DNA from: Oscillospiraceae bacterium
Lineage (GTDB): Bacteria; Bacillota; Clostridia; Oscillospirales; Ruminococcaceae
DNA length: 36,313 bases
Assembly (NCBI GenBank): GCA_024697725.1
Contig: JAILFE010000222.1
Span: 1 to 36,313 of the forward strand
Direction of reading: 5' to 3'
Both the position numbers and the translations under genes were made by a program. Positions 28,475 to 33,311 of this stretch are shown in pieces (the stretch's first letter is position 1; every line of letters begins with the position of its first letter). The notes beneath the pieces are model-generated. The model was not told the DNA's origin and made no database searches. It saw only the letters and a list, made by a program, of their open reading frames with translations.

Positions 28475-29725
28475 TTATTCTGTGATCTTTATCATTACTG
28501 CCTGCGAGCCGTTTTCCTCCCAGCGCTCGATAAAATCATCGCGGCTGTAAGGGACTATGTTCTTTTTATCATTGCAGTCCATGAAATAGTATGCTTTCGG
28601 GTCATACCCGACAAGGACGAGCGTGTGGGAATTGCCGAGCCATTTTATCTTTCTTCTCGTTCCGATAGCTGTCCATTCCGAGCGTTCGGAATACCTGTAG
28701 AAATCCATGTTCTTTGATGCCCATACGATCACAGGAACGCCTGAATCTATGAGCTTTTCCATATCTGCGGAGTTGAGGTCTTCAAGGCATATCGCCTTGT
28801 ATTTGTCCGAGACTCCGTTTTTTTCAAAATAAACGTTCAGTGTATTTCCGATGACGGGAGCATAACAGCCGTAACCGTCTTTATGCGGATCACCTGCAAA
28901 GCATATGTACGGGTCGGGACCGTAGTTCGTGCCGTCATTATCGGTGTAGAATTTTGTGCTCGAACGCATATAATGATCGGCAAGGTCGGTCTTGTCCGCA
29001 TCAAAGCCGAGATAGTTCAGCACCGCCGCCGCACAGGTTATCTCACAGCCTGTCGGGAGTTCGGGATACTGTGATATCACCGGGAAATCCTTTATGAGCT
29101 TCTTGCTGAAAAAGACCTCCGGAGACGAATAGCCTTGACCAAGGTCTTCGACGGTATATCCGTCATAATGCTGATGCGGGTCAGCGTTGAGTCTTGTATA
29201 GCGTTCGCGTTCGTTTATCCTGTTGAGGTATATCTCATCGGAGCATATCCTGTCGGTGAAGTATGTGCATACGAGCAGTGCCGCTCCGAGTATCACGGAG
29301 ATAGTTCTGAACACTTTATAACTCCTTTCACAGAGCAAGCTGCACGGCAGGAGCTCTGTCAGCGGATAAAGCTCCGGCTCGCCGCTTTCGTTTTCGAGTA
29401 TGACAATGATCCCCGGAGAAAACTCCGCGAGCACCTGACGGCATATCCCGCATGGGAAGGTATATCCGCCCTTTGTGTTGTTCACTATCGCTATCGCGGC
29501 AAAACTGCGGCAGCCCTCCGATACTGCTTTGAATACAGCAGTCCTCTCGGCGCAGTTAGTCGCGCCGTAGGATGCATTCTCGATATTGCAGCCGGTGAAT
29601 ATCCTGCCGTCTTCCGTGAGCAGGGCAGCCCCTACCCTGAAGTCGGAATATGGCGCATATGCATATTCTGCGGCTTCGTGAGCTGCTTTCAGGAGTTCCT
29701 TTGCATTGATATCAGAATTTGTCAT
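28475..29725 (-). CDS. Single ORF: N-terminal cytidine deaminase + C-terminal TM-anchored C39-like cysteine peptidase (possible frameshift fusion)
   Basis: CDA motifs NCAERTAVFKA and FPCGICRQVL (residues ~1-130), then TM, then C39_2-like QYPELPTGCEITCAAAVLNYLG and GNSHTLVLVGYD. Confidence 0.8.
   Translation of the reverse strand: MTNSDINAKELLKAAHEAAEYAYAPYSDFRVGAALLTEDGRIFTGCNIENASYGATNCAERTAVFKAVSEGCRSFAAIAIVNNTKGGYTFPCGICRQVLAEFSPGIIVILENESGEPELYPLTELLPCSLLCERSYKVFRTISVILGAALLVCTYFTDRICSDEIYLNRINERERYTRLNADPHQHYDGYTVEDLGQGYSSPEVFFSKKLIKDFPVISQYPELPTGCEITCAAAVLNYLGFDADKTDLADHYMRSSTKFYTDNDGTNYGPDPYICFAGDPHKDGYGCYAPVIGNTLNVYFEKNGVSDKYKAICLEDLNSADMEKLIDSGVPVIVWASKNMDFYRYSERSEWTAIGTRRKIKWLGNSHTLVLVGYDPKAYYFMDCNDKKNIVPYSRDDFIERWEENGSQAVMIKITE
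29312..29329 (-). promoter_or_regulatory. Internal Shine-Dalgarno + GTG start at the CDA/C39 junction
   Basis: Minus strand GAAAGGAG-ttataaa-GTG-TTC-AGA; would start the C39 peptidase at 29314. Confidence 0.6.
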
Positions 29726-29804
29726 ATATGATCACCATGTAAAAAGCTCTCAGGCGGATGCGGAAAAGTGCCTTGAACGGCAGCACTGAACTAAAATGCT
29801 TAAA

Positions 29805-29947
29805 TAATGTCTGCTCAAAAAGCCGAAAAGTACGTAATAGTGCAACTTCGAAGTGCTTTTCGGCTTTTTGAATGCAAGATTTTTGAGCTGATAAGCCCAA
29901 AAATCTTGCACTATTGCTGACCGTAGGTCAGCAATAAGCAGACATTA
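29805..29947. repeat. Cloverleaf-like palindromic repeat, unit 1
   Basis: Outer IR taatgtctgct/agcagacatta (11 bp) enclosing hairpins 29816-29870, 29874-29909 and 29912-29936. Confidence 0.75.
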
Positions 29948-29953
29948 ATCAGG

Positions 29954-30051
29954 TAGTGCGCTGCAAATCTTTGATTTGCAGCAGCAGAAGCGGCAGTAAG
30001 CAGCCGCTTCTGCCAATAACCGCCCGTAGGGCGGTTATTGAGCACGCACTA
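29954..30051. repeat. Cloverleaf-like palindromic repeat, unit 2
   Basis: Outer IR tagtgcg/cgcacta enclosing hairpins 29960-29982, 29985-30012 and 30014-30040. Confidence 0.75.
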
Positions 30052-30226
30052 TTTACCGATAAACTCATATAAATATTGAAGCTATATTCCCCAAAATGCA
30101 TTATAAATTTCTATAGGTAATTAATTGCCGAAGTAATAAGATCTGTGCAGAACTGCATAATATCAATATATCATGCAGTTAAGGAATTGTCAAGCTCAGT
30201 GTCAGTATAATCACAGCCTGATCTGA

Positions 30227-30255
30227 AATAGTGTCCCTTTGGGACACTATTTTTT
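30227..30255 (+). terminator. Intrinsic terminator-like hairpin
   Basis: aatagtgtccctttgggacactatttttt. Confidence 0.6.
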
Positions 30256-30385
30256 GAAAATCAGATGATGCTTTCCGCACTCATTGATAGAGTCACTTTC
30301 AGATCCTTCGTTCTGAATATGAATTGCAGCTCATCTTACCCTATCGACTCTGCCATTAATAATGATCAGTGGCTCATTAAAAATT

Positions 30386-30532: not shown

Positions 30533-31225
30533 TTATTCAAGACCCTTGCGTTTGTATATCAGTATAAAGAGAACTGCTGCTATCAAGAAATTCACAGATA
30601 TTACCACTATGCTTTCCGAAGTGATATCCGAGTTTCCGATACCGTTGATAAGCTCGCTTATCTGCTGAGAGTAGGTCATCCTTGCGATATCCTTTATCTT
30701 TTCGTTGAACATCGAAAGCATCGGGAGCAGAGAAAAGACCAGCGATACCGGAACAGAAAGCGATGAGGAAGCCATCTGATTTTTCGAGAATACTCCGATC
30801 ACGGCTCCGGTGAGCCCGGACAGCAGTATCCCCGTGCATATCAGTGCAATGAACATCGCAAGGTCTGCTCCTCTGTATCCGCCTAGTATCGCAAATACTG
30901 CCGTACCGAACATAGACATCACGAATACATATATCCCTATGCCGATAAGATATTCCGCAGACTTCACGCTGCTCATTATAAGTACGCGAAGAGTGTTCTT
31001 TTCCTTTTCCTCGGAGATTATCGCTGCCATACTTGAAAGAGGCGCCATTGCCACAAACATTACCGCAAAAAGTTTTGCAAAGAAATGCTCGGGCATACCT
31101 TCCGGCTTTACCGCATTTTGCATTATTACCGCCAGTACCGGGAACATGACGAACTGTATCAGTACCATCTTGTTTTTAAGAGTGTCTTTCATTTGCTTGA
31201 GAAATATCGCAGATATGTTCTTCAT
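30533..31225 (-). CDS. ABC-2 type transporter permease
   Basis: Multi-TM; FLKQMKDTLKNKMVLIQFVMFPVLAVIM...ISEEKEKNTLRVLIMSSVKSAEYLIG; overlaps the ATPase gene by 4 nt. Confidence 0.87.
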   Translation of the reverse strand: MKNISAIFLKQMKDTLKNKMVLIQFVMFPVLAVIMQNAVKPEGMPEHFFAKLFAVMFVAMAPLSSMAAIISEEKEKNTLRVLIMSSVKSAEYLIGIGIYVFVMSMFGTAVFAILGGYRGADLAMFIALICTGILLSGLTGAVIGVFSKNQMASSSLSVPVSLVFSLLPMLSMFNEKIKDIARMTYSQQISELINGIGNSDITSESIVVISVNFLIAAVLFILIYKRKGLE

Positions 31226-33119: not shown

Positions 33120-33168
33120 AGCCGCTTCTGCCAATAACTGCCCGCAGAGTGGTTATTGAGCACGAACT
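33120..33168 (+). repeat. Partial copy of unit 2 (right half), same orientation
   Basis: 44/49 identical by eye to 30002-30050 (agccgcttctgccaataac.gcccg.ag.g.ggttattgagcacg.act). Confidence 0.75.
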
Positions 33169-33250: not shown

Positions 33251-33311
33251 ACTGCGTGTCCAATAACTGCCCGCAAATCAAAGATTTGCAGCGCACTATC
33301 TGATTAATGTC
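33251..33311 (-). repeat. Shortened copy of unit 2, inverted orientation
   Basis: 33273-33311 is 38/39 identical to the reverse complement of 29941-29979; adjoining ccaataactgcccgc matches the hairpin 30014-30040 arm. Confidence 0.75.

Follow-up and report, generated by a model that had tools for sequence, protein, structure and literature searches.

The window analyzed here, a stretch of 36,313 nucleotides from an Oscillospiraceae bacterium, carries a strongly structured segment at positions 29805-30051 (247 bases) between two minus-strand genes, located at 28475-29725 and 30533-31225, the latter encoding an ABC-2 permease. The gene at 28475-29725 (minus strand) is an apparent one-frame fusion of cytidine deaminase-like and C39-peptidase-like parts, which are two separate genes in the genomes G001, G002 and G041; the joined frame may be genuine or an assembly error. 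A sequence-only reading had described the segment as two tandem cloverleaf-like units, with six hairpins inside two enclosing stems and no open reading frame. All the inverted repeats that it named are in place, and single-sequence folding gave the same picture of two adjacent four-way junctions, each made of one enclosing stem and three hairpins. No ORF overlapping 29805-30051 reaches 80 aa. The segment folded at -146.7 kcal/mol as RNA (z -16.2) and at -94 kcal/mol as DNA (z -18.5), values that none of 200 dinucleotide shuffles equaled in either case. When the 36-kb window was scanned with a G+C correction, the element was the sole extreme (z -8.7), the next unconnected region reaching -3.2. 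A strong hairpin at 30223-30256, ATAGTGTCCC-TTT-GGGACACTAT followed by a T run, is an ordinary terminator-like site.

The outermost TA of the enclosing stems belongs to a TANNTA target, and the mobile element proper therefore spans 29807-30049, which leaves 243 bp between the flanking hexamers. The parts are as follows:

29801-29806 (+): left flanking target hexamer TAAATA, of the TANNTA class (repeat check, target consensus of 37 copies); differs from the right hexamer
29805-29815 (+): 5' arm of the unit 1 enclosing stem, TAATGTCTGCT (repeat check, folding)
29807-30049 (+): mobile element proper, ATGTCTGC...CGCAC, no ORF (ends set by aligning G000 and G002 copies whose flanks are unrelated, and by duplications in other copies)
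29807-29824 (+): left terminal inverted repeat ATGTCTGCTCAAAAAGCC; core in relatives RTGTCTGCTSAAYAA (copy alignments, relatives)
29816-29870 (+): hairpin 1a (folding; compensatory changes between G000 and G002)
29873-29910 (+): hairpin 1b, TGCAAG...CTTGCA (folding; GTGCAAG/CTTGCAC among the best-conserved intergenus sequence)
29912-29936 (+): hairpin 1c, loop GTA, inverted to TAC in other copies (folding, loop comparison)
29937-29947 (+): 3' arm of the unit 1 enclosing stem, AGCAGACATTA (repeat check, folding)
29954-29960 (+): 5' arm of the unit 2 enclosing stem, TAGTGCG (repeat check, folding)
29961-29981 (+): hairpin 2a, core CAAATC-TTT-GATTTG common to G000 and G002 (folding, alignment)
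29984-30013 (+): hairpin 2b, wholly different in sequence in G002 and absent from a G000 subfamily (folding, alignments)
30014-30040 (+): hairpin 2c, adjoining the right end (folding, G000/G002 comparison)
30032-30049 (-): right terminal inverted repeat, read inward GTGCGTGCTCAATAACCG (copy alignments)
30045-30051 (+): 3' arm of the unit 2 enclosing stem, CGCACTA (repeat check, folding)
30050-30055 (+): right flanking target hexamer TATTTA (repeat check, target consensus of 37 copies)
33120-33168 (+): decayed right-end remnant of another copy (90% over 49 bp)
33273-33311 (-): decayed unit-2 remnant of another copy (97% over 39 bp)

The two remnants lie in opposite orientations about 100 bp apart, in the spacer that separates a LytTR gene from a GGDEF gene.

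Copies, ends and target duplications

Further copies, which the sequence-only reading had proposed to count, are abundant. The genome that contains the window (G000, 457 contigs) yielded at least 40 scored copies, the full-length ones being mostly 93-98% identical to the window copy. In another genome of the same genus, G002 (JALEMR01, 'Oscillospiraceae bacterium SUG144'), at least 40 places hold a homologue that equals the window copy in length and is ~73% identical to it; matches to the right end numbered 70 in G000 and 48 in G002. G001 and G003, two further genomes of the genus, lack the element. G041 (uncultured Ruminococcus, CAMCRP01) has one intact copy and remnants, and RUI259 a single copy, at a contig end. 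Many G000 copies also coincide with assembly breaks at contig ends, and many contigs start or stop inside a copy; the element is a likely reason why these assemblies are broken. By heuristic ORF calls, ~52 of 54 insertion sites are intergenic, with either orientation relative to the neighboring genes. An alternative 10-bp pairing noted earlier (29836-29845 with 29906-29915) does exist in the window copy, but it is not conserved in the G002 homologue and is thus probably incidental.

The ends were set by aligning copies with unrelated flanks, which gave ATGTCTGCTCAA... on the left and ...TTGAGYACGCAC on the right. The terminal inverted repeats are imperfect, with 8 of 12 positions matching between the left ATGTCTGCTCAA and the right end read inward (GTGCGTACTCAA), and this arrangement is kept in relatives. 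Target duplications measure 6 bp, sometimes 7, take the form TANNTA, and are exact in 20 of the 37 intact-ended copies. Eighteen exact 6-mer duplications were observed against 4.6 expected when flanks were re-paired, the best of 20000 shuffles reaching 13; with TANNTA required on both sides, 17 of 24 copies matched against 6.4 expected. Over these copies and those of other genera, the matched duplications are diverse (TATTTA, TACATA, TACTTA, TATATA, TAATTA, TAAATA, GAATTA, TATAATA, TAATTTA). One copy, L013, has GAATTA on both sides and a right end in CACG where the others have CACT, showing that the last base belongs to the duplication. A 5-bp ANNTA duplication had been our first idea; it was dropped for 6 bp, the better fit owing to L013.

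The remaining 17 of the 37 intact-ended copies lack a matching duplication, among them the window copy, whose flanks are unequal (TAAATA on the left, TATTTA on the right). Such flanks may result from decay, from recombination between copies or from misassembly, these genomes being fragmented. L024 on its left and L026 on its right are flanked by sequences that together form a TATATA/TATATA pair, and some unequal cases look like exchange between copies or misassembly. No strain-level empty site was found for the window family; at the window locus, compared by synteny, the neighboring genes are not conserved.

Several kinds of partial copy were also seen. Right-end-only remnants are commoner than left-end-only ones in G000 and G002 (e.g., L103, L116, L140, L148, L149, L151); several start near the border of units 1 and 2, and they have no duplications. 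Five G000 loci (L108, L109, L112, L120, L121) are palindromes of 47-48 bp in which two right ends stand back to back, with TANNTA-like sequence on both sides that never forms matching duplications; those inspected closely have a 4-nt loop, TTAC/GTAA, and the flanks of L120 are inverted repeats. In G002, the contigs of L070, L080 and L143 have a common left flank, where a terminator hairpin leads into a truncated copy, and differing right flanks, a pattern reflecting either duplication or assembly branching at a repeat. The RUI259 locus (L173) carries another end-like sequence, TAAATAGTCTTTACTCAA, near 2605-2622; it is different from the element's own and lies ~80-100 bp past the right end of the element.

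Conservation of the double cloverleaf across genera

A covariance model of unit 1 was searched against 398 genomes of the bacterial family, representing 126 genera. Matches were obtained in 16 genomes from 13 genera, with 14 of the 16 genomes lying outside the genus of the window. These other-genus copies again show the end motif and TANNTA flanks, while most of the interior sequence differs. A matching duplication was present in 24 of 33 copies from other genera, including 20 exact 6-mers against 5.2 expected (best shuffle 13). Among 27 copies from 14 genomes aligned on unit 1 by fitting to the model, 40 of 49 pairs had pairing-keeping changes on both sides, compared with 22 in shuffles, and 90% of cells paired, compared with ~40% when partners were slid. 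The covariation that the sequence-only reading had asked about is therefore present among homologous loci. This alignment was fitted to the model, so unfitted folds of single sequences are the cleaner evidence. Folded one by one without alignment, 18 of 27 full-length copies formed two three-hairpin junctions, in 10 of the 11 genomes with full-length copies (G398, G130, G361, G024, G399, G072, G280, G106, G247 and G209), which cover nine genera besides that of the window. In at least 10 genera of one family the double-cloverleaf plan persists while most of the sequence has been replaced. The sequence best conserved between genera comprises the left end and the GTGCAAG/CTTGCAC arms of hairpin 1b, which may be candidate protein-binding sites. 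The window element gave no match in the plasmid collection and the G072 element none in the phage collection; one exact pattern searched in viral contigs gave 0 matches.

Internally deleted forms bear on the role of the fold. Two 127-bp copies in G002 (L150 and L153) have one common internal deletion junction and different duplications (TATATA and TAATTA), and in G000 some copies of the form without hairpin 2b are flanked by duplications (L022, L115). The deleted forms have thus moved, which means that transposition does not strictly require the complete double cloverleaf and that, at least in some cases, the ends are enough. Some other reason must then underlie the lasting presence of the fold; efficiency, replication-linked movement and protection are candidates.

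A second family came to light inside one copy. Hairpin 1c of L275 (G024:C149) is broken by a 166-bp insert unrelated in sequence to all other loci collected, and the uninterrupted paralogues L272 and L273 show its insertion site empty. Folded alone, the insert also forms two three-hairpin junctions. This one case suggests that the double-cloverleaf plan is not peculiar to one lineage. We tentatively entertain the broader idea that the double cloverleaf recurs as a design among bacterial transposons that lack genes, having been retained or reinvented in unrelated families, and that the branched DNA fold would be part of their recognition and movement; we regard this as possible rather than probable.

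Proposed mode of transposition and alternative explanations

The many dispersed copies, exact ends, imperfect inverted repeats, TANNTA duplications, intergenic sites and kept two-cloverleaf plan place the element in the MITE class, and the covarying stems of other genera likewise uphold the proposal of the sequence-only reading, a structured, MITE-like mobile repeat scaled to four-way junctions. We consider it a non-autonomous DNA transposon moved in trans by a transposase (probability about 0.85). This enzyme would bind both terminal repeats and make a staggered cut at a TANNTA in the target, and gap repair by the host would create the duplication. The cloverleaves would act as folded DNA, as a cruciform or in single strands, and not as an RNA product; they might, for example, present or pair the ends or serve during replication. 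A DDE-type enzyme would be the likeliest mobilizer because the duplication size is near-fixed. Five DDE_Tnp_1 genes were found in G000, one in G041 and none in G002, and the ends of the element are absent at those of G000 and G041, where the ends differ. Y1_Tnp genes are single in G000 and in G002, with none in G041. All long loci collected were scanned for terminal repeats that pair at a distance of 0.5-7 kb and bear equal hexamers, and none were found. No parent autonomous element was thus found near the DDE_Tnp_1 or Y1_Tnp genes or by the paired-end scan, in MAGs that are incomplete. The element points to a transposase beyond those matched here.

The same fold could be read as that of a mobile structured RNA, acting as a riboregulator or as a guide in transposition, in which the double cloverleaf would have to form in the transcript and mobility would be incidental or RNA-assisted. 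The structure is indeed very stable and covarying, and transcripts of known MITEs are stably folded and able to influence mRNA decay (PMC2229807). The placement of the copies, however, shows no preferred orientation relative to genes, and the loops of the hairpins occur inverted, as reverse-complement pairs (GTA/TAC, GCA/TGC, TTT/AAA, TTC/GAA, TTAC/GTAA, CGTCAGT/ACTGACG), as expected from arm exchange or template switching within a DNA palindrome. An RNA fold should favor G-U over A-C mismatches. On the plus strand, G-T and A-C mismatched pairs were balanced, as 23:22 distinct events were counted within genomes and 49:57 cells across genera; since neutral decay alone gives parity within genomes, the cross-genus count is the informative one. 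In Rfam, 11 relative loci had no match at the gathering score, and the window gave sub-threshold matches only. The lack of a G-U bias, the inverted loops and the intergenic, orientation-free placement make folded DNA the best reading of what is kept, and the structured-RNA option left open by the sequence-only reading is unlikely. Because template switching alone can keep the arms of a palindrome matched, selection need not account for every compensatory change; even so, distinct changes per site are two- to three-fold fewer in stems than at unpaired positions.

Two other kinds of enzyme deserve consideration as movers. Insertion by a tyrosine recombinase would make the flanks coupling sequences rather than duplications, with inverted 12-bp arms around a 6-bp TANNTA overlap. 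A right end, TANNTA and a left end in succession would make a recombinase-like site, a tandem pair (L077) has differing hexamers on its two sides, and hexamers are unequal in many copies. The need for identical overlaps would nevertheless carry one hexamer through a lineage, whereas over half of the copies have matched yet diverse duplications, as target duplication predicts, and we find this explanation quite unlikely. Still less plausible, and very improbable overall, is the REP/BIME idea of the sequence-only reading, that is, a REP/REPIN/BIME-type element moved by a RAYT or another hairpin-reading Y1 (HUH) single-strand transposase. IS200/IS605-type chemistry is not known to make target duplications, and clear ones of 6-7 bp are present here. 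G041 has an intact copy with a duplication yet no Y1_Tnp match, and no matching terminal repeats flank the Y1 genes of G000 and G002. What speaks for it is that each of these two genomes has one Y1_Tnp gene and that several hairpins show compensatory change, as REPINs do (PMC3116915). Transposition as a MITE, with duplication of the target, remains our preferred reading.

Comparison with known repeat families

Our literature searches, with mainly open-access coverage, found no report of the element or of any double-cloverleaf MITE, and nothing relevant on its terminal-repeat sequence, a TANNTA target or MITEs of Ruminococcus. The conserved double-cloverleaf architecture thus appears undescribed in the searched literature, which is not proof of novelty. 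A complex branched fold that is conserved while its sequence is replaced makes the dependence of a transposon on multi-branched DNA structure testable, and raises the question of why the fold persists although internally deleted copies still move.

The REPIN and REP-BIME elements are, like this one, palindromic and non-autonomous with compensatory changes between arms, but they are tied to RAYT Y1 transposases (PMC3116915), whereas here there are clear duplications and no matching Y1. The bcr1 repeats (BCR group A) of the Bacillus cereus group, with ~39 copies per strain on average, are also dispersed and gene-less, with mobile-element features and predicted secondary structure (PMC6542083; PMC2267715). 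They are, however, confined to that group, and their short, AT-rich, mobility-linked motif is TTTAT rather than TANNTA (PMC6542083; PMC2267715). No double-cloverleaf plan is described for bcr1/BCR in these papers, and the host group differs. The CIR elements of Caulobacter and Brucella similarly have two independent structured arms and a linker, but each CIR arm is a single long inverted repeat, and their target duplication and mobility are uncertain (PMC2229807).

According to reviews, bacterial MITEs are mostly one long hairpin and known from one or a few genera (PMC2229807, PMC10969869). The Correia/NEMIS, RUP, ERIC, RPE and QMITE elements share with ours the lack of a protein, terminal inverted repeats, a terminal TA, target duplications, stable stem-loops and mostly intergenic positions (PMC2229807; PMC10969869). 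They measure ~100-200 bp and mostly form one stem-loop by 5'-3' pairing (PMC2229807; PMC10969869), whereas the present element consists of two tandem four-way junctions with six hairpins in ~250 bp, kept across genera.
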